Source: Methanofollis formosanus
Lineage (GTDB): Archaea > Halobacteriota > Methanomicrobia > Methanomicrobiales > Methanofollaceae
Reading direction: 5' to 3'
Assembly (NCBI RefSeq): GCF_019633745.1
Contig: NZ_CP037968.1
Coordinates: 2,610,789 to 2,674,788 of the forward strand
Length of the DNA stretch: 64,000 nt
Made by a program: the position numbers and the translations under genes. Below, piece by piece: positions 11,154-53,518 of this stretch. The notes below the pieces were generated by a model. It saw only the letters and a program-made list of their open reading frames with translations. It had not been told where the DNA came from and searched no databases. Every line of letters starts with the position of its first letter. The stretch's first letter is position 1.

Positions 11154-12431
11154 TCACCACATGAAGCGCAGCCAGAGGAGGCCGAGGCCGATCGCCACGC
11201 TCAGGACGAGGACGATCATTCCTATCTTCAGGAATTCGATGAAGCTGATATTTATGCCTTCCCGCTCGGCGACCCCCAGGACCACCACGTTGGCCGAGGC
11301 ACCGATGGCCGTCCCGTTTCCGCCCAGACAGGCGCCCAGGGAGAGGGCCCACCAGAGGGGACCGACGTCCATCGCCGTGCCCATGTCCTGGATGAGGGGG
11401 ATGAGCGTGGCGGTGAGCGGGATGTTGTCGACGAAGGCCGAGGCGATGGCCGAGAACCAGGCGATGATGATCATCGCCTCGCCGGTGGAGGAGACGTGGC
11501 CGACGACGAACTCCGCGACCTGGGCGATGAGCCCGGTCTCGACGAGGGCGCCGACGATGACGAAGAGTCCGCCGAAGAAGAAGAGGGCGGGCCATTCGAT
11601 CTTCTCCAGGATCTCTTCGGGCGGCACGCGGCTCCAGAAGAGGATGAGCGCCGCACCGGTCAGGGCCACGACGGCGGGTTCGACGCCGAGGCTGCCGTGC
11701 ACGAAGAAGAGGACGACGACCAGGAGGATGGTGACCACCGACTTGGTGAAGAGGGCGCGGTCTTTGATCGCCGCCCGTTCGTCCAGGGCTTCGAGGCTGC
11801 GCACGATCTCTCCCATCGCCTCCTCTCCGACGGCGATCTTCTTGCGGTAGAGGAGGGCCAGGAAGAGGATGACCACCACGAAGTCGACGGCGACGATCGG
11901 GCCCATCGTGAAGAGGAAGTCGTTGAACCCGAGGCCGGCGGCCGATCCGATCATGATGTTCGGGGGGTCGCCGATGAGCGTCGCTGCGCCGCCCACGTTG
12001 GAGGCGAAGATCTCGGTGAGCAGGAAGGGCACCGGGTTGAGCTTCATCACCCCCGCGATGTACAGGAGCATCGGGGTGAGGAGGAGCACCGTCGTCACGT
12101 TGTCCAGGAAGGCGCTCGTCACCGCGGTCACGATGGCGAAGAGGACCAGCACGCGCATGGGGCTGCCTCCCGAGAGTTTGGCGGTCTTGATCGCGATGTA
12201 CTCGAAGAGCCCGCTCCCGCGTGCGGTGTTCACGATGATCATCATCCCCATCAGGAGGAAGATGGTGCCGAGGTCCAGGTATTCGGGGATCTTGTCCCAG
12301 GGGACGATCCCGGCGAAGGCGATCACCGCGGCGCCGGCCATCGCCGCCACTGCCCGGTGGATCCGTTCGTCGATGATCAGGGCGTAGGTGAAGAGGAAGA
12401 TCGCGATGGCGATGAGTTCAGGGCCGGTCAT
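11154..12431 (-). CDS. ArsB/NhaD-type ion permease, copy 1
   Basis: This 425-residue integral membrane protein has about 10-12 hydrophobic helices and the SLC13/ArsB/NhaD (IT superfamily) pattern. Signature stretches are LDLGTIFLLMGMMIIVNTA, FLDNVTTVLLLTPM in the first half and FVDNIPLTATLIPLIQDMG in the second half, plus LIGDPPNIMIGSAAG and LGACLGGNGTAIGASANVV. The duplicated DN(V/I)xxT re-entrant motifs mark the transport path. Substrate could be Na+/H+ (NhaD-like), arsenite or an organic anion; sequence alone does not decide. It is followed by a Usp gene with overlapping stop/start. A close paralogue lies 4.4 kb to the right, with roughly four-fifths identical residues in the compared N-terminal stretch. 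Confidence 0.85.
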   Translation of the reverse strand: MTGPELIAIAIFLFTYALIIDERIHRAVAAMAGAAVIAFAGIVPWDKIPEYLDLGTIFLLMGMMIIVNTARGSGLFEYIAIKTAKLSGGSPMRVLVLFAIVTAVTSAFLDNVTTVLLLTPMLLYIAGVMKLNPVPFLLTEIFASNVGGAATLIGDPPNIMIGSAAGLGFNDFLFTMGPIVAVDFVVVILFLALLYRKKIAVGEEAMGEIVRSLEALDERAAIKDRALFTKSVVTILLVVVLFFVHGSLGVEPAVVALTGAALILFWSRVPPEEILEKIEWPALFFFGGLFVIVGALVETGLIAQVAEFVVGHVSSTGEAMIIIAWFSAIASAFVDNIPLTATLIPLIQDMGTAMDVGPLWWALSLGACLGGNGTAIGASANVVVLGVAEREGINISFIEFLKIGMIVLVLSVAIGLGLLWLRFMW

Positions 12432-13152
12432 GGCGCTTCCTCCGATTGTTCGTGAGTGTGTGGCTCATAGGGTATGGTGTCCGTGTTCTTTGCCTCCCGG
12501 AGAAGGTCGATTGGTGGGGGGAGAGTGACGGCATGTCACGCTCCTCTGGTGTGCAGAAGAAATGTTGTTGCTCACGCCACATCAGCCTTGCGAAAAATAG
12601 AGATCTGGAGAAATTCCCCGGATAGATCTCAGTGTGGAGGATCAGCCCTCAAAGGCTGGAAGCCTTCTCATGCTCACTCCACTCGCACCCCGTAAGAAGA
12701 TAGAATCAGGGGCGACAGCCCTCCCTTCTGGATCGTCTCTTCTGTGTGGGGCGGCAGGGTGTTGTGTTTCCATCCGCTGCCGTGTCATGTATGCTTGAGG
12801 GGTGCTTTCGCTTCATGAACAATTACCATGAAAATGATCCTGACGATCCTCTCTTCAGGTTTTCATGAGAGTTTGAACTTGCCATATCACGTTGAAGCCG
12901 ATACGCAGAGGATAGAAAATTCCTCTGATGGATCGGCCGCCCCTAATCGTCAAATCTTTCCCGCAATCTCGCGCCGGGGGCTCTGCCCCCGGACCCCCAC
13001 GACGAGGATAGCCGGGGGGCGGCGATGAAACCAGATCTTCCAAAGGTTCTGTCGCGAGGATTGGGATCCCGCCCACACACCGTAGCGCAGCTCAGAAAAT
13101 TTTCATCCCGTATGCTTGAGCCTAGGTTCATGCCTGATTCTACAGATTCCAA
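12432..13152. repeat. 720-bp gap with dispersed repeats, no gene
   Basis: The left part (12432-12780) shows no credible frame. A degenerate head element is seen around 12790-12850 (TTCATGAACAATTACCATGAAA) and another in inverted sense near 13095-13140 (GAAAATTTTCATCCCGTATG followed by CTTGAGC). Between them, at about 12940-13025, is an inverted copy of the GC-rich hairpin element: AATCTTTCCCGCAATCTCGC followed by GCCGGGGGCTCTGCCCCCGG and ACGAGGATAGCCGGGGGGCG. Confidence 0.6.
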
Positions 13153-14304
13153 TTATGCGCATTTCTTCCTGAAGGAAATACAGCACCATAACAGAACAAG
13201 TGCGAAAGCCGAACTTATCGCAATAAATCCCGGCACCGGTGACATTCTGTCATCTTCGCCTGCTAATGCAGCATTATCTCTGGTGTGCTCATCAAGCTCG
13301 ATCAGATAAATCTCCCGTCCGTCGCTCATGATGATCGTATCGCCTGTCGGGCTCCAGTAGAGTTCGCGGGATACCGGAGGACCAAGTGGTTTTACCGTCT
13401 GCTGCGCACTTCCGTCCCAATCCATTACTTTGACTTCCCCGCAGGACGAGTAGGCAATCTTCCGACCTGAGGGGCTCCATCCGAGCGCCATTCCACCCGA
13501 ACATCCATCATCGGTAAGCTGGCACCCGCCGCTACCGTCCGGACGAATCGTCCACACATCCATAGAAAAATACGCGATATCTTTCTCTTCAGGACTCCAT
13601 TTTGGATTAAACGCCCATTTCAAGAGGAGTGGCGTCTTTTTTCCACCTGAAACATCGGCAATCCAGATATCATATCTGCTATCTGCAAAGGATGGTATTG
13701 CGATTTGATCTCCAGATGGACTCCAGGATATTCTTACATCAATAGTGTCCACCAGTTGGTAATCACATACTTCACCGTCAAAAACGCGGTGCTGGTTGCT
13801 GCCGTCCGCTTTCATGACCCAAAGTTCCCGGGATCCGGATCTGTTCGAGAAGAATGCAATTTTCGTTCCGTCCGGGCTCCAGGAGATGAAGAAATCGTCG
13901 TAAGGAGCGTTGGTGAGACGGATTGCCCCGGTTCCGTCGCTCCTGATAGCCCATACGTCGAGTTCCTCTCCGTCGCTCTGTGAAAATGCGATCTCATCTC
14001 CTGCCGGGCTCCAGCCGGGATGCACAACGGGTGAGTCCACCGGCAGCCGGGTCTTTTCCGAACCGTCGCTACGCATAATCCAGAGAGAAGAATTTCCCTG
14101 ATATGCAATCCGTGTTCCGTCGGGGCTCCAACTGGGGTATAGACACGTCCCTTCAATGTGGGCATCGGTTAATTGAACAGGATCGCGAACGTCTGCGGAT
14201 GCTGCGTGAACCAGTAGGATAAAAAGAAGGAACATCGTGATGCACGGGATCGAGAGCCCATGGAAGTATTGTTTATTATATGGCGAACTGCGAGGTCTAT
14301 TCAT
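13153..14304 (-). CDS. Membrane-anchored TolB/WD40-like (PD40) beta-propeller protein
   Basis: The 383-residue product starts at ATG 14304, preceded by GAGGAT about 9 bases upstream; a longer frame to 14373 overlaps the neighbour. An N-terminal signal segment (CITMFLLFILLVHAASA, residues ~20-36) is followed by repeated PD40 blades: PSWSPDGTRIAYQGN, PGWSPAGDEIAFSQSDG, ISWSPDGTKIAFFSNRSG, SWSPSGDQIAIPSF, KWSPEEKDIAYFS, GWSPSGRKIAYSS and YWSPTGDTIIMSDG, about seven in all. A C-terminal hydrophobic helix (GFIAISSAFALVLLW) with a basic CISFRKKCA tail would anchor it in the membrane. It overlaps the Ig-like gene by eight bases and is the last gene of a three-gene cassette of lower GC than its surroundings. 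Function unknown; propellers of this kind bind ligands or proteins at the surface. Confidence 0.8.
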   Translation of the reverse strand: MNRPRSSPYNKQYFHGLSIPCITMFLLFILLVHAASADVRDPVQLTDAHIEGTCLYPSWSPDGTRIAYQGNSSLWIMRSDGSEKTRLPVDSPVVHPGWSPAGDEIAFSQSDGEELDVWAIRSDGTGAIRLTNAPYDDFFISWSPDGTKIAFFSNRSGSRELWVMKADGSNQHRVFDGEVCDYQLVDTIDVRISWSPSGDQIAIPSFADSRYDIWIADVSGGKKTPLLLKWAFNPKWSPEEKDIAYFSMDVWTIRPDGSGGCQLTDDGCSGGMALGWSPSGRKIAYSSCGEVKVMDWDGSAQQTVKPLGPPVSRELYWSPTGDTIIMSDGREIYLIELDEHTRDNAALAGEDDRMSPVPGFIAISSAFALVLLWCCISFRKKCA

Positions 14305-15220
14305 ATGCCGGATCCTCTGCAGCATGGATAGTAACTTTTTTATCACATTCGAACCAGAATTCGGGCACTCCAAACAACCATGGGTTAAACTCGAAACTTA
14401 TCGTCTCTCCTGATCTGACACGAACAGACCAGCGTAATACATAGGCTACATCCGCTTGTTCCGATGAAAAACTCCAATCATAATCAACTTTTTGAACATC
14501 ATATGCATATGTGGGAGGTCTTACTAGAGCGAGAATGAGATCGGTACAATCCAGAAAGAAACCGGCAAATGGAACCGGCTCCAAGCATAGTGAAAAAAGA
14601 GCCTCATATAATTCATAATTAGGTTTCTGCAGTTCCTCTACTGGCCATGCTCCAACACAATTCGGATCAAGCGAGATATATAACTCCTGACTCGTCTGGT
14701 TACTGTTTTCCTGTACTGTAATACCCATCCCTCGTATTCCTGGATAACGACTGTCCTCATCATCTCTCATCATCCCTGCTGCAGCTAATCTGAAGTCATA
14801 TAGCCAGTCTCCATCATACAGTTCACATTTTCCCATATATTCTATAACAACCGAAAAAAATGCGGCAACTGTATGACCCGGGTTCCCAGGGTAATCTTTG
14901 ACTACCGATAGTACTTCTTGAAGCGTGCTCTGGGGAAGCCATATCACATCCCAGTTCCAGTAGTTCTCCCCGGACCCATTTTCGTTCGCCGCGACCACCC
15001 GCACCGTGTGCTCCCCGAGCGGGGCGCTCTGGAAGGTGTATGATGCCTGCTGGACGCCTGATCCGCTCGTGTGCACCAGTTCTCTGTCCAGGTAGAACGT
15101 CAGCGTGGCGGGCTGGTCGCACGAGGCCGTGAACGTCCGCTCCGCCCCGACGGGATCGCCGACATCCGGATCTGCCGGGCTGACCCGTGTTACCACCGGC
15201 GGATATACAACGCTTCCCAT
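14297..15220 (-). CDS. Protein with N-terminal Ig-like domain and unknown C-terminal domain
   Basis: This 307-residue protein starts at ATG 15220 with GGAGGTG just upstream, inside the end of the previous gene. Residues ~8-90 form an Ig-like beta sandwich (VVTRVSPADPDVGDPVGAER, LTFYLDRELVHTSG, GEHTVRVVAANENGSG) like those in archaeal surface proteins, yet no signal peptide is seen. The C-terminal ~210 residues match nothing I recognise; they include ELYISLDPNCVGAWPVEEL, a hydrophobic ALFSLCLEPVPFAGFFLD stretch and a beta-rich end (VLRWSVRVRSGETISFEF). Base composition changes inside the gene near 14,940: the Ig part is GC-rich like the genome, the rest is clearly AT-richer, suggesting a fusion of pieces with different histories. 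Confidence 0.65.
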   Translation of the reverse strand: MGSVVYPPVVTRVSPADPDVGDPVGAERTFTASCDQPATLTFYLDRELVHTSGSGVQQASYTFQSAPLGEHTVRVVAANENGSGENYWNWDVIWLPQSTLQEVLSVVKDYPGNPGHTVAAFFSVVIEYMGKCELYDGDWLYDFRLAAAGMMRDDEDSRYPGIRGMGITVQENSNQTSQELYISLDPNCVGAWPVEELQKPNYELYEALFSLCLEPVPFAGFFLDCTDLILALVRPPTYAYDVQKVDYDWSFSSEQADVAYVLRWSVRVRSGETISFEFNPWLFGVPEFWFECDKKVTIHAAEDPAYE

Positions 15221-15223
15221 GCC

Positions 15224-16273
15224 TCACACCTCCAGGTACCCCTCGCGGATCAGATGCTGCGGAAGCACCCATCCGTTGCAGAACACCGTATTGCCGTCCC
15301 TCCAGACCGGCTCGGGTGAAACATACTTCTGGTGAACCCAGAATCGGTTGTTAAACTGGCAAAACGGCTCCCCCTCCGGACACAGGGGCGTTCCGGGAGG
15401 TTGCTGCTTGATGGTCGAGAAGAGGGTATGGTAATCTCCGGACAGCGGCTCTCGAATCCGCTTTCTCTCCAGATCGAGGTACAGGGTAGGCTGGTAACAG
15501 ATAAGAGAACCGTGATCCGGTCGGTCCTGGAGCTTCATTTTGTCGGCCCCGCTGGCACCGATGATCGCAATATCGTATTTTTCCTTGCGTAACCTCTCCA
15601 TGAAAGCAGCGTAATCGAACCGGAACCAGGTGAGCGAAGGAAAGATATCCCAATATTCGGCAGGAAAAGAACCGACGGCTATTACCTTCCCGATTCCTCT
15701 TGGGAGCTCCATCTCCGGTTCGATCGGTTCTGCGGCAATTTGATCCGCATGATACAGGATTTTATCCGTACCGACACAGGGACCGTCGAGGACGGCGGGA
15801 GTTTTTGTCAGGATGGTCTGCACATTCCGGTCATGGACACGATCCCAGAATGCCATGAGATCCTGCGAGGGGCCAATTCCGTGTCTTCTCTTGCTCCATA
15901 GCTGTTTGAAGAAATCAGAAACATATTCCTTCCAGTTTTCGCGTGCATCATATGAAACGACTTCATTGATGTTCTCGAACAGGTCGACGTATACGGCACG
16001 CAGCGGGGCATAGGCAAACGTGATCTCCATGATATAAGCATCGTACCCCGCGGGGACCCACTGTTCGAACGCACTTTTACTCCGTGCCGCCTCCAGCGGA
16101 ACCGAATAGTGATAGCAATCCTCGAACAAATACCGGTGAACGTCATTCTGATCTTTATTCGTCTGGAGGCACGCTACACGTTTACCTTCATTTCGTAACT
16201 GTTTCTCAAGCAGGATGGCCGTGGTAGTTTTTCCCTGATCCGGGATCGAGGCAAGTACGTAGAGGTCTGTCAT
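15224..16273 (-). CDS. BioD/CobQ-like P-loop NTPase of unknown function
   Basis: The 349-residue protein starts at ATG 16273 with AGGTGA upstream (a GTG one codon earlier is the alternative). The N-terminus is DLYVLASIPDQGKTTTAILL, a P-loop of the dethiobiotin-synthetase/AAA_26 type with QGKTT, followed by LRNEGKRVACLQTNK. VPAGYDAYIMEITFAYAP corresponds to the strand and acidic residue that follow in this fold. A second alpha/beta region contains IGKVIAVGSFPAEYWDIFPS and YDIAIIGASGADKM. The C-terminal ~60 residues carry PLCPEGEPFCQFNNRFWVHQ and VFCNGWVLP, whose Cys and aromatic residues suggest a small extra domain. It heads a three-gene unit with the Ig-like and propeller proteins (spacing 3 bp, then an 8-bp overlap). 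The reaction is unknown. Confidence 0.65.
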   Translation of the reverse strand: MTDLYVLASIPDQGKTTTAILLEKQLRNEGKRVACLQTNKDQNDVHRYLFEDCYHYSVPLEAARSKSAFEQWVPAGYDAYIMEITFAYAPLRAVYVDLFENINEVVSYDARENWKEYVSDFFKQLWSKRRHGIGPSQDLMAFWDRVHDRNVQTILTKTPAVLDGPCVGTDKILYHADQIAAEPIEPEMELPRGIGKVIAVGSFPAEYWDIFPSLTWFRFDYAAFMERLRKEKYDIAIIGASGADKMKLQDRPDHGSLICYQPTLYLDLERKRIREPLSGDYHTLFSTIKQQPPGTPLCPEGEPFCQFNNRFWVHQKYVSPEPVWRDGNTVFCNGWVLPQHLIREGYLEV

Positions 16274-16788
16274 CACGTCACCTGTTGTATACTATATCTG
16301 AATTGGATGGTCGCCAATAATTGTTATTATATATTATTTCGTTATTATTTAGATATAAGATTTTATAAATTGGTATTATTTAATGAAATCATACGTGCCA
16401 AACTAATGTCAGCCAAGAGAAGAATCAATCAGTCTGGAAAACTGTTTGGAGGAGGTAAAACATCAAACGCAAGACGATTTCAAAATAGGCCCCTTTTAAT
16501 CGCTCCTGTGGCGAAAGCACCCCCAGGCATATCTCATGAACATTTTTCATCGCAGATCTTCTGGGTGTGGAGAGATCCTCGATCCCTCTCCTTGTGACAG
16601 GGCGGTAGGGAGGGCACCCCTCAATCGCCATCCCCCCTATCTTCGTGAAGATGGGGGGGAAGGTAGCGTCGAAGATCCTGGCGAGCGTGATGCCGTCTTC
16701 GGTTCTCTCTTTTGCGGGGAGGGTCCGGGAGGGGGGGGCAACCCCTCTCCCGGTCAAGAGCTTATCCCAAAAAAACAACCCTCCTCCC
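16274..16788. repeat. AT-rich leader region plus dispersed repeat
   Basis: 16,285-16,420 is unusually AT-rich for this genome (long runs such as TTGTTATTATATATTATTTC) and probably contains the promoter of the three-gene cassette on the minus strand. At about 16,515-16,570 there is a head-element relative (GCATATCTCATGAACATTTT). At about 16,600-16,765 lies a diverged GC-rich element with CCCCCTATCTTCGTGAAGAT, GGGTCCGGGAGGGGGGGGCA and ACCCCTCTCCCGG. No gene is supported. Confidence 0.55.
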
Positions 16789-19639: not shown

Positions 19640-20700
19640 GAGGGGGAGATCGTGACGGGGCCGTCCCCGCCCTATCCTCTCGCGAGATTGCGGAAAAGAT
19701 CCGATGATGAGGGGACGGCCCGTTCTGATCATGACGCTGTCCTGTCGTCATGACCCCGAAGATTGAACCCGGATGGGAGAGGGCGATCTTTTTTCAGCGG
19801 GACTACGCGCCCTGTGCCGTCCCCCGTCCTATCTTCTCGCGAGAGGGCAGGACAGATTCGATGATGAGGGGACGGCATGTTCTGATCAGCACGCTGTCCT
19901 GGTGCCATGACCCCGAAGATAGAACCTGGACGGGAGAGTGCCGATCTACTCTCAGCGGGATCATGCGTTTCGTGCCGTCCCCCGTCCTATCCTTTCGCGA
20001 GAGGGCAGGACAGATCGTGCGAGGTGGGACGGCACGTTTGGATCATCACGCCGTCCCACTTTCATGACCCCGGAGATTGGAGCGGGACAGAAGGGCGCCG
20101 ATCTTTTTTCAGCAGGACCACCGCACCTCCGCGTGCCGTCCCCCGCCCTCTCCTCTCGCGAGACGGCAGAACAAATCGTGCGAGGTGGGACGGCATGTCC
20201 TGATCGTTACACTGTCCTGTCGTCATGACCCCGAGGATAGAACCCAGACGGGAGAGGGGCGATCTTTTTTCAGCGGGACTACGGCAGCCCCGTGCCGCCC
20301 CCGCCCTATCTTCTCGCGAGATGGCAGAAGGGATCGAGTGATGGGGGGCGGCATGTCCTGATCGTTACGCTGTCCTGTCGTCATGACCCCGAAGATTGAA
20401 CCCGGACGGGAGAGGGCGGTCATTCATTCAGCGGGATCATCCTGCCCCTTGCCGCCCCCCGCCCTATCTTCTCGCGAGATTGCGGAAAAGATCCGATGAT
20501 GCGGGGACGGCACATCGATCACCACACCCGCCCTGTCGTCATGACCCCGAAGATTGAACCCGGACGGGAGAGGGCGATCATTCGTTCAGCGGGATCACCC
20601 TGCCCCGTGCCGTCCCCCATCCTCTCTTCTCGCGAGATTGCGGGAAAGATCCGATGATGGGGGGGCGGCATATTCTGATCATCACACCTTCCCCCGATCA
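19640..20700 (+). repeat. Tandem array 1: about seven copies of a ~157-bp unit
   Basis: The unit recurs with CATGACCCCGAAGATTGAAC-type anchors at about 19749, 19906, 20063, 20224, 20382 and 20540 (spacings 157, 157, 161, 158, 158). Each unit has the order CATGACCCCGAAGATTGAAC, CGGGAGAGGGCGATC, TTCAGCGGGATCA, GCCGTCCCCCGTCCTATCTT, the 10-bp palindrome TCTCGCGAGA, a GCGGAAAAGATCCGATGATG-like part, GGGGACGGCA, then TGATCATCACGCTGTCCTGT. GCCGTCCCC and GGGGACGGC form inverted ends of a potential stem-loop. No open frame is conserved from copy to copy. A second array in the opposite orientation is at 33.5-34.6 kb. Confidence 0.9.
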
Positions 20701-24471: not shown

Positions 24472-25282
24472 ACCCCCCCTCTTTCTTTCCTGAACGCTGT
24501 TTGGACGTTTCGTTTCTCTTCTGTTGTTTTTCTGCCGGTGAGTCCGTGGGCTTGCCAGAGTTCTGTCCTGAATGGCCGGTTGTGGAGAATTGGGCCTGAA
24601 GCGAGAATGCCCTTCAAGCATACGGGATGAACATTTCTCGTCGCTTGATCACTCTTTTTCAAGACTGGAGACTCGATGGAGACCTAGTTCAATCGCCGCC
24701 CCACCTATCCTCTGTCCGTGGGAGTCCGGGGATGGAAACCCCCGGCGCGAGATGACGGTGAGGAGTCTGCGATTGAAGGCGGCACGCCTGATCACCACGC
24801 CTTCCCAAACATCGGCGCCGGGGGCTCTGCCCCCTGACCCCCGGGATGAAGATAGGGCGGGGAAGGCAGAGAAAAAAAATTGTTCAGAAGGTGTCTATGT
24901 TCTTTGCGTATGGGCCCACGCCTGGTGCAGGTGTTTTCAAATCTCCATCAAAATCTCAAGGGTCGATATTCGGGATCATTTTCATAGTAATTCAGCATGG
25001 GGCGAGATCACGCCGCAAGCATACGCGATTGAACGTTCCTGTGGGTCTCCAGTGTGGGCATGGATCCTTGCTCTGCCTTCTGAGCAGGATGCCCCCCGGA
25101 TCACCCCTTCGTTGCCGCCCCGCCCCTATCTTCGTCGTGGGGGGTCCGGGTTTTTTCCCCCGGCGCGAGACGGTGGTGAAGATTCTGTGATTGGGGGTGG
25201 CCCGTCTGATCCGTCCGCCCTCGTCCGTATGGAGTCTGAATATCGGGAAATCAACCCGGCTGAAAAAAAAGGGGGGGGGCGG
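24472..25282. repeat. 810-bp gap with two sets of dispersed repeats
   Basis: A head element is at about 24,600-24,665 (CTTCAAGCATACGGGATGAA, then CATTTCTCGTCGCTTGATCA and CTCTTTTTCAAGACTGG), closely matching 4932-4996. GC-rich elements follow at about 24,690-24,790, 24,812-24,870 (GGGGGCTCTGCCCCCTGACC) and 25,105-25,210 (CCCCTATCTTCGTCGTGGGG, GGCGCGAGACGGTGGTGAAG). A partial second head element is near 25,012-25,045. No credible gene was seen; longer frames here run through the repeats. Confidence 0.6.
25262..25279 (-). terminator. C9/T8 tract after the beta-helix gene
   Basis: Just beyond the stop at 25283, the minus strand reads nine C then eight T. A T-rich tract is the usual archaeal intrinsic termination signal. 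The homopolymers may also be length-variable. Confidence 0.5.
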
Positions 25283-33534: not shown

Positions 33535-34560
33535 GGGGGGCGGCACGGGGCGCGTGATCCCGCTGAAAAGCGATCGGCTCTTTCCTGTCCCGCTCCTATC
33601 TTCGGGGTCATGACAACGGGAAAGATGTGGTGAACAGCCGTGCCGCCCCCTCATCACCTGGGACTGTTCTGTCGTCTCGCGAGAGGATAGGGCGGGGGAC
33701 GGCACGGGGTGGTGTGATCCCGCTGAAAAGCGATCGGCCCTTTCCCTTCCTGGGTCTATCTTCGGGGTCATGACGGCGAGACGGCGTGATGATCAGGCGT
33801 GCCGTCCCCTCATCACTAGGGACTGTTCTGCCGTCTCGCGAGAGGATAGGGCGGGGGACGGCACGAGGCGTGATCCCTTCGAAAAAAGATCAACTCTCTC
33901 CCGTCCCGGTCCAATCTTCGGGGTCATGACGGCGAGACGGCGTGATGATCCAAACGTGCCGTCCCCCTCATCACCGAATCTGTCCCACCCCCTCGCGAAA
34001 GGATAGGGCGGGGGACGGCACGCGGCGTGATCCCTCCGAAAAAAGATCAACTCTCTCCCGTCCCGGTTCAATCTTCGGGGTCATGACAACGGGAAAGATG
34101 TGATGATCAGGTGTGCCGTCCCGCATCATCGGATCTTTCCCGCAATCTCGCGAGAAGATAGGACGGGGGACGGCACGAGGCGCGTGATCCCGCTGAAAAG
34201 CGATCGGCCTTTTCCCGTCCGGGTTCAATCTTCGGGGTCATGACGGCGAGACGGCGTGGTGATCAGCCGTGCCGTCCCCAATCACCGGTTCTGTTCTGTC
34301 GTCTCGCGAGAAGATAGGGCCGGGGACGGCACGGGGTGGTGTGATCCCGCTGAAAAGCGATCGGCCCTTTCCCGTCCTGGGTCTATCTTCGGGGTCATGA
34401 CAACGGGAAAGATGTGATGATCAGGTGTGCCGTCCCCTCATCATCGGATCTTTCCCGCAATCTCGCGAGAAGATAGGACGGGGGACGGCACGAGGCGTGA
34501 TTAATCCGAAAAAAGATCGGGCCTCTCCGATCCGGTTCTATCCTCGGGGTCCCCCCCGCA
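33535..34560 (-). repeat. Tandem array 2: about six copies of the ~157-bp unit, inverted relative to array 1
   Basis: The palindrome CTCGCGAG recurs at about 33675, 33835, 33991, 34147, 34303 and 34462 (spacings 160, 156, 156, 156, 159). Read on the minus strand, each unit matches those of array 1: CATGACCCCGAAGATTGAAC, CCGGACGGGA, TTTTCAGCGGGATCAC, GTGCCGTCCCCCGTCCTATC, TTCTCGCGAGA, TTGCGGGAAAGATCCGATGA, GGGGACGGCAC. GTGCCGTCCC and GGGACGGCAC form the ends of a long potential stem-loop. No conserved reading frame is present across the copies. Confidence 0.9.
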
Positions 34561-46639: not shown

Positions 46640-47290
46640 CATCGATCGATCCGGGAAGGCCACTCCTGAGATCCCGAAGAGAAGAACGATCCAGAATAAG
46701 ACACTTCCTGCCGCCCCTCGTCAATCCCCATGGCCGGGGTCCGGGCCCCCTCCCAGACGCGAGAGAACAGCCCGGCATTCCTCGTTTTTTGCCGGGACAT
46801 TCGTTCTGATCGACGTGCCTTCCTCAACGCTCGCGCCGGGGGCTCTGCCCCCGGAACCCCCGGGATGGCGATAGGGCCGGGAAGGCAGCAGAAAACGATC
46901 ATGATGAGCATGCCCCCCCGCCCCTCGGCTATCTTCGTCGTGGGGGTCCGGGGGTGCAACCCCCGGCGCGAGACGGCGGCAAAGATTCTGCACCTGGGGC
47001 GGGAGGTCTGATCGATCGACATGCCTTCCCCCACGCTCGCGCCGGGAAGGCCGCACGAACGATCCCGAAGAGAGGAGGAGTTGCCGTCCCCCGTCAATCC
47101 CCATGGCCGGGATCCGGGGCCCCTCCCAGACGCGAGAGGACAGTCCGGCATGCCTCGTTTTTTGGTGGGGCGGGTGGTCTGATTGATCGCCGTGCCTTCC
47201 TCAACGTTCGCGCCGGGGGCGCTGCCCCCCCTCCCCCGGGACGGCGATAGGGCCGGGAAGGCAGAGAAAACGATCATGATGAGCGGGCAG
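46640..47290. repeat. Gap with a ~205-bp direct duplication and GC-rich hairpin elements
   Basis: Two related segments, about 46,705-46,915 and 47,082-47,283, share CGTCAATCCCCATGGCCGGG, CTCCCAGACGCGAGAG, CCTCGTTTTTTG, GTGCCTTCCTCAACG, CGCGCCGGGGGC, GGCGATAGGGCCGGGAAGGC and AAACGATCATGATGAGC in the same order. Between them lies a GC-rich element with CGGCTATCTTCGTCGTGGGG and GGGGTGCAACCCCCGGCGCG. The gap 46,608-47,357 contains no credible gene. Confidence 0.65.
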
Positions 47291-52980: not shown

Positions 52981-53518
52981 AATATCGGCCTTGCAGGATC
53001 GGGCATGATGCGAGAGCATGCCTCAGGCATACGTCATGAAAATCGCTCAGAGCAGCGTTTCGTGGTGTGGAGGGATCCTTGCTTTTCACCCACGATATGG
53101 CAACGGGTTGGAACAATGCTCAATCGCCGCCCCTCGGCTATCTTCGTCGTGGGGGGTTCGGGGGGTGCAACCCCCCGGCGCGAGATTACATGAAAGATTC
53201 TATGATATGGGGCGGCACGCCTGATCATCACGCCTTCCCATACCCTCCCGCCGGGGGCTCTGCCCCCGGACTCCCGGGATGGCGATAGGGCCGGGAAGGC
53301 CGAGAGAAGACCATGAAGATGGGTTGCGATCCTCTCAATCTTCATCGGTGGGAGGTCAAGGGGGGACGACCGGAGGGAGTCAAGAAGATCTCTGATCTTT
53401 GAGCGGCCAGCCCCCCGGCGGAGGGTATGCTTTCAAGATTCCTGGGAAGAAGATCTTCGATTCGGGAGACTTCCGGGATCGGAAGGGTGACATCCTATCG
53501 GTCGCTATAGACTCTGCC
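52981..53518. repeat. 540-bp gap with head and GC-rich dispersed elements
   Basis: A head element at about 53,005-53,090 reads GAGAGCATGCCTCAGGCATA, GTCATGAAAATCGCTC, GTGGTGTGGAGGGATCC. A GC-rich element follows at about 53,120-53,235 (CGGCTATCTTCGTCGTGGGG, GGGGTGCAACCCCCCGGCGC, CATGAAAGATTCTATGATAT) and a second hairpin at about 53,245-53,305 (GCCGGGGGCTCTGCCCCCGG, GATGGCGATAGGGCCGGGAA). No gene is seen before the antitoxin. Confidence 0.6.

Follow-up and report, generated by a model that had tools for sequence, protein, structure and literature searches.

A putative cassette-swapping surface module of methanogenic archaea that combines a predicted NTPase, an Ig-domain protein and an exchangeable membrane partner

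The window, i.e., the whole stretch of 64,000 nucleotides from Methanofollis formosanus analysed here, contains a three-gene unit on the minus strand (13153-16276) located between two paralogous permease genes. A gene for a P-loop NTPase is followed after 3 bp by a gene for a protein with an Ig-like domain (14297-15220), which overlaps by 8 bp with a gene for an exported propeller protein. The ORF coordinates confirm this arrangement, and sequence and composition confirm the AT-rich leader, as both had been read from the sequence in the original prediction. The features are:

12601..16786, no strand assigned: inserted segment of approximately 4.19 kb between the two paralogous permease genes
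13153..14304, minus strand: cognate partner with signal peptide, PD40 beta-propeller and C-terminal PGF-TM-basic tail (from PD40, signal and TM predictions)
14297..14944, minus strand: variable C-terminal domain of type T3 (from homology and GC content)
14945..15220, minus strand: constant N-terminal Ig/PKD-like domain, aa 1-92, with the exchange point (from AF2, Foldseek and DNA homology)
15224..16276, minus strand: constant gene, SIMIBI-like P-loop NTPase of an apparently undescribed family (from AF2, Foldseek and alignment)
16277..16420, minus strand: AT-rich leader with a TATA-like box of the TTTATAAAA type (from sequence and composition)

The GC content of the module is 51.4%. Segments of the same size taken across the window average 63.6% (sd 3.6), and only 1.3% of them are as low. 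The flanking permease genes are 85% identical to each other over 1255 bp. Nine further genomes from the genus have the same pair next to each other, with a gap of 134-201 bp and in one case 752 bp, while the gap in the window measures 4370 bp. Contiguous homology to one relative (G003) breaks off at 12600 and picks up again at 16787; in G003 these two points are only 8 bp apart. Because the permeases stand side by side in the relatives and the homology breaks at 12600/16787, approximately 4.19 kb were gained here, and the module is supported as an acquired, recent insertion in this genome. This is in good agreement with the original prediction of an acquired module, distinct in composition from its neighbours and placed between near-duplicate permease genes. 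The repeats that it had placed on both sides of the module fared less well. The left one exists (approximately 12935-13029), but it is a member of a dispersed intergenic repeat and not specific to the insertion. Four near-exact copies of its core, GGGGGCTCTGCCCCCGGACCCCC, occur in the window (12976-12998, 24820-24842, 46838-46860 and 53253-53275), where none is expected by chance. The flanking repeats were therefore rejected as transposon ends. Inverted repeats around the module are weak and imperfect (27 nt at 81%, 18 nt at 83%), and the module genes come without a transposase or integrase. No relatives of the NTPase were found in viral contigs or in phage and plasmid collections, and cargo of a virus, phage or plasmid was rejected on these grounds. 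Elsewhere, the window holds two arrays of a 157-158 bp unit (19660-20685 and 33535-34551), with about 6.5 copies each and apparently in opposite orientation.

The NTPase reaches the cut-off of none of the models in Pfam, NCBIfam and PADLOC. Its AF2 model (pLDDT 88.6) resembles, in the N-terminal half, the SIMIBI NTPases ParF, Soj, SRP54, FlhF and MeaB (Foldseek probability 1.0, with modest E-values of about 1e-3). The likeness to the ParA/Soj, SRP54/FlhF and MeaB proteins lies in the fold of this half. In contrast to them, the NTPase has a C-terminal domain of its own with conserved Cys260 and Cys333, and it matches no sequence family above cut-off. The alignment shows the loop SIPDQGKT in the window and SxPxQGKT in most members; the deviant Walker A of ParA/MinD with its signature lysine (KGGxxGK[ST]) is absent. 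P-loop NTPase activity is a prediction, and the NTPases of loci L031 and L032, which lack the Walker threonine in the alignment, count against the explanation that we favour below. A CbiA/CobQ-type amidotransferase was considered and rejected, as its matches are sub-threshold only and a glutaminase signature was not recognised by eye. The same genome carries a paralogue of the NTPase with 53% identity elsewhere. Within the order, 17 of 232 genomes encode relatives, and so do 14 of 393 genomes in a sample of the phylum that includes other orders. In a scan of genome contigs, the sole named relative was that of Methanoculleus sp. UBA208, whose 96% identity indicates horizontal transfer.

The second protein is composite. 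An AF2 run on the full protein yielded only the Ig domain (pLDDT mostly above 80), and Foldseek matches it to Ig, Fn3 and CARDB domains. The GC content is 64.9% within this N-terminal domain and 43.1% in the C-terminal part, which ends in HAAEDPAYE. Across loci, the protein starts either with the Ig domain (MG..PPVV) or with a short W-rich stretch (MGWxDWGDW), and its C-terminal parts, labelled T1 to T5 from BLAST clusters and inspection, are unrelated to one another. The T3 domain of the window is homologous only to those of L023 and L030 and to an exported protein in genome G014. Neither T1 nor T3 has a match in Pfam or PDB, and no toxin, adhesin or known recognition domain was found in them. 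In T1, Cys41, Asn44 and His101 are invariant (L049 6809-7375, alignment A4), and their order is reminiscent of transglutaminase- or papain-like enzymes, an assignment without Pfam or PDB support.

The propeller gene runs from an ATG at 14304 to 13153; this ATG is preferred over the listed TTG at 14373, as the signal peptide starts with it. The protein matches PD40 (E 1.8e-19) but scores 111.8 bits against the TolB equivalog TIGR02800, far below its cut-off of 343.15, and an assignment to Tol-Pal was therefore rejected. With TolB/PD40 propeller proteins it shares the PD40 repeats and the export. Unlike TolB, it comes without a Tol-Pal system and is presumably anchored via a C-terminal PGF-type tail. 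The PGF-TM-basic tail was seen by eye and a C-terminal TM segment is present. The window protein has no match to TIGR04126 (PGF-CTERM), which two relatives match below cut-off; the archaeosortase ArtA is encoded in the genome.

The gene order is not a peculiarity of this genome. In approximately 17 loci where the sequence reaches far enough, the gene behind the NTPase encodes a product that starts with MG (MC in two loci), and a gene for a membrane-anchored protein comes next; the distance from the NTPase to the second gene is 0-3 nt in all 11 loci measured. The third position is occupied by PD40 propellers, small single-TM proteins, YIP1-like multi-TM proteins or a PQQ-type propeller, nearly all of them with a signal or TM segment and hydrophobic at the N-terminus. 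Some loci carry tandem extra partner genes, and orphan partners were also seen. The original prediction had asked whether the three genes co-occur in other archaea or fall into unrelated housekeeping families. The gene order recurs in the order and in other orders; profile searches left the NTPase without a model and placed the propeller protein with PD40, and not in such housekeeping families. In line with the original prediction, which did not recognise the combination, it matches no named family. The three-protein set does recur as a unit, but its composition is not fixed: the propeller is one of at least four partner types.

Comparison between loci indicates what is exchanged. DNA matches between them end inside the Ig domain or at its end. 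In DNA, the window and Methanoculleus UBA208 are 92.9% identical through the NTPase gene and 135 nt into the Ig gene; beyond this point they are unrelated, and the whole Ig domain of the window also matches a second, downstream Ig copy in the UBA208 locus (84%). L026 and L027 occupy the same chromosomal site and are 87% identical from upstream of the module to the end of the Ig domain; thereafter L026 carries T1 and L027 carries T2, and similarity returns further downstream. The tree of the NTPases has four closest sister pairs (bootstrap 100) with typeable cassettes, and within each pair the cassettes differ, namely window T3/L024 T5, L026 T1/L027 T2, L028 T4/L029 T2 and L030 T3/L033 T5. Remnant 3' ends of the NTPase gene precede orphan Ig starts in L025, L028 and others. 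At the level of sequence comparison, these data show exchange at the Ig domain and horizontal spread of the module. The recurring module consists of a constant NTPase and N-terminal domain, with the C-terminal domain and its partner exchanged as a cassette.

Domain and partner also vary together. The small membrane partner follows T1 in 9 of 10 cassettes and the other types in none of 11 (Fisher p 3e-5), a p-value that serves as a guide only, as there is some relatedness among the loci and the types were assigned by hand. In two genomes without the NTPase, G451 and G292, T1 and the partner domain are fused in one polypeptide behind a signal peptide, and the partner HMM matches these fusions with E 4e-25 and 2.5e-22. 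This makes the fusion the best evidence for a complex of domain and partner, and for its action outside the cell. We conclude that a type of variable domain pairs with a type of partner, as far as can be read from these arrangements.

By a simple hydropathy rule, a signal peptide is absent from all 24 NTPase-linked variable proteins but present in the four intact homologues that come from genomes lacking the NTPase (T3 in G014; T1 in G451, G292 and G096), so that the contrast rests on four proteins. In G096, T1 ends an exported PKD-Kelch-PKD protein. The other homologues from NTPase-free genomes (G039, G044, G439 and G024) are truncated orphan remnants and uninformative. The simplest reading of these small numbers is that the NTPase-linked variable proteins also act outside the cell and that the NTPase may be involved in getting them there. 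Delivery by a contractile injection system was rejected, since the contractile sheath is missing in 14 of 15 genomes, and no export machinery was identified.

From a biological point of view, we regard the locus, with moderate confidence, as a cassette-swapping surface module of methanogenic archaea, most likely serving recognition or antagonism between related cells. The NTPase would bind the leaderless Ig protein during its translation and would help to target or export it, and outside the cell the partner would bind the variable domain. The most likely use would be to tell kin from non-kin or to act against related cells, and the partner would serve as immunity or receptor protein; we infer this role from the arrangement of the loci. 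The T1-partner fusion argues somewhat against a toxin/immunity pair, for which it would be unusual. It is conceivable, and we suggest it tentatively, that the NTPase stands in for the signal peptide as a dedicated targeting factor, guiding the leaderless Ig protein to an export site while it is being translated. If this is true, it would be a new way to bring exchangeable domains for recognition or effector functions to the surface of archaea, and handling of leaderless proteins by the NTPase would point to an unknown secretion route.

The same fusion, as well as the T1 domain at the end of the G096 protein, would also fit a display without antagonism, which we consider possible but clearly not probable. 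Here, the variable protein is an adhesin or an S-layer-associated ligand, the partner is its anchor, and swapping is antigenic variation, e.g., against viruses or grazers. Ig, PKD and propeller domains are typical of archaeal surface proteins, and a toxin domain was not found. However, the tandem extra partner genes, the orphan partners and the very patchy distribution are more reminiscent of conflict loci, and recognition or antagonism is favoured over such a display.

NTPase loci often lie beside clusters of CobN and ABC transporter genes. Of the 22 NTPase loci, 10 have a CobN gene within 13 kb, where chance would give about 0.5; these include L023, L025, L028, L031, L049, L051, L070 and L072, and three of them probably represent a single site. 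The haem de-chelatase HmuS is one of the CobN relatives, and their archaeal roles are unknown (PMC12583661). Because of this proximity, a link to metals or tetrapyrroles was considered, with the module as an uptake accessory that helps to capture the cofactor; we think it unlikely. The window copy and about half of the loci are not near CobN, orientations are mixed, and an insertion hot spot explains the proximity equally well. A fixed nutrient would also not predict cassette swapping. An operon with CobN was rejected on the mixed orientations, a hot spot being preferred. As a separate observation, L025 carries four tandem paralogous exported binding-protein-like genes (11195-15661) beside the module and the CobN gene.

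The lack of signal peptides in all 24 linked proteins, together with the tight coupling to the NTPase, could also mean that NTPase and Ig protein form a complex inside the cell, e.g., in signalling with the membrane protein as sensor. This is improbable, as relatives of T1 and T3 have signal peptides and the partner domains lie largely outside the membrane. A chance assembly of unrelated genes by one insertion, which the low GC content and the inserted location alone would fit, has hardly any likelihood left, being refuted by the order and spacing conserved across several families and orders and by the co-variation of domain and partner. PADLOC gave no match for the three proteins or for two relatives; known anti-phage defence was rejected on this basis, and for the defence role that the original prediction had mentioned as one possibility, no link to antiviral defence emerged.

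Two known kinds of locus come close to the module in the favoured reading. VARTIG is a hypervariable Ig module of Thermococcales for which its authors report no counterparts outside this group (PMC8416519). Both have an Ig-domain protein whose C-terminal region is replaced by recombination, subfamily-specific membrane proteins downstream, a patchy distribution and no identified toxin. In contrast to VARTIG, a dedicated NTPase precedes the Ig protein, which is leaderless and begins directly with one Ig domain of approximately 92 aa; the domains that are exchanged are not of the Ig type, and the hosts are Methanomicrobiales and related orders. Compared by description, the arCOG07710-type protein of VARTIG, with a long conserved N-terminus, often a signal peptide and several Ig domains, is unlike the module protein, and the C-terminal DNNxxxGG motif of VARTIG is absent from the window protein. 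Since two VARTIG features are present and two are not, we do not file the module as VARTIG, though it would work like it. With polymorphic toxin systems (PMC3482391; archaeal ones are cited in PMC8416519) it shares the constant N-terminus, the exchangeable C-terminus, the adjacent cognate gene and the orphan cassettes. It differs from them in that no toxin domain was recognised (an unrecognised toxin is possible), domain-partner fusions occur, and a secretion system or trafficking domain of known kind is absent. Our best reading is that the module resembles VARTIG and polymorphic-toxin loci and is a member of neither. In the literature searched, no description of it was found, and it apparently belongs to an undescribed family.

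Self/non-self recognition and antagonism are poorly understood in archaea. The module is a candidate methanogen counterpart of the sole described Ig-based cassette system, reported as confined to Thermococcales. With an undescribed NTPase family, several domain families unrecognised by Pfam and a clear exchange point, pairing, export and specificity are directly testable.

A minor observation concerns the loci whose variable protein has the W-x-D/N-rich start. A radical SAM gene is present in 5 of approximately 9 such loci and in none of approximately 15 loci of the Ig type (p about 0.003, hand-counted), at L031 7764-8597, L049 8372-9205, L050 4375-5238, L071 2000-2842 and L074 6056-6898. The start itself (MGWGDWGNWSD and similar) recalls substrates of cyclophane-forming maturases.
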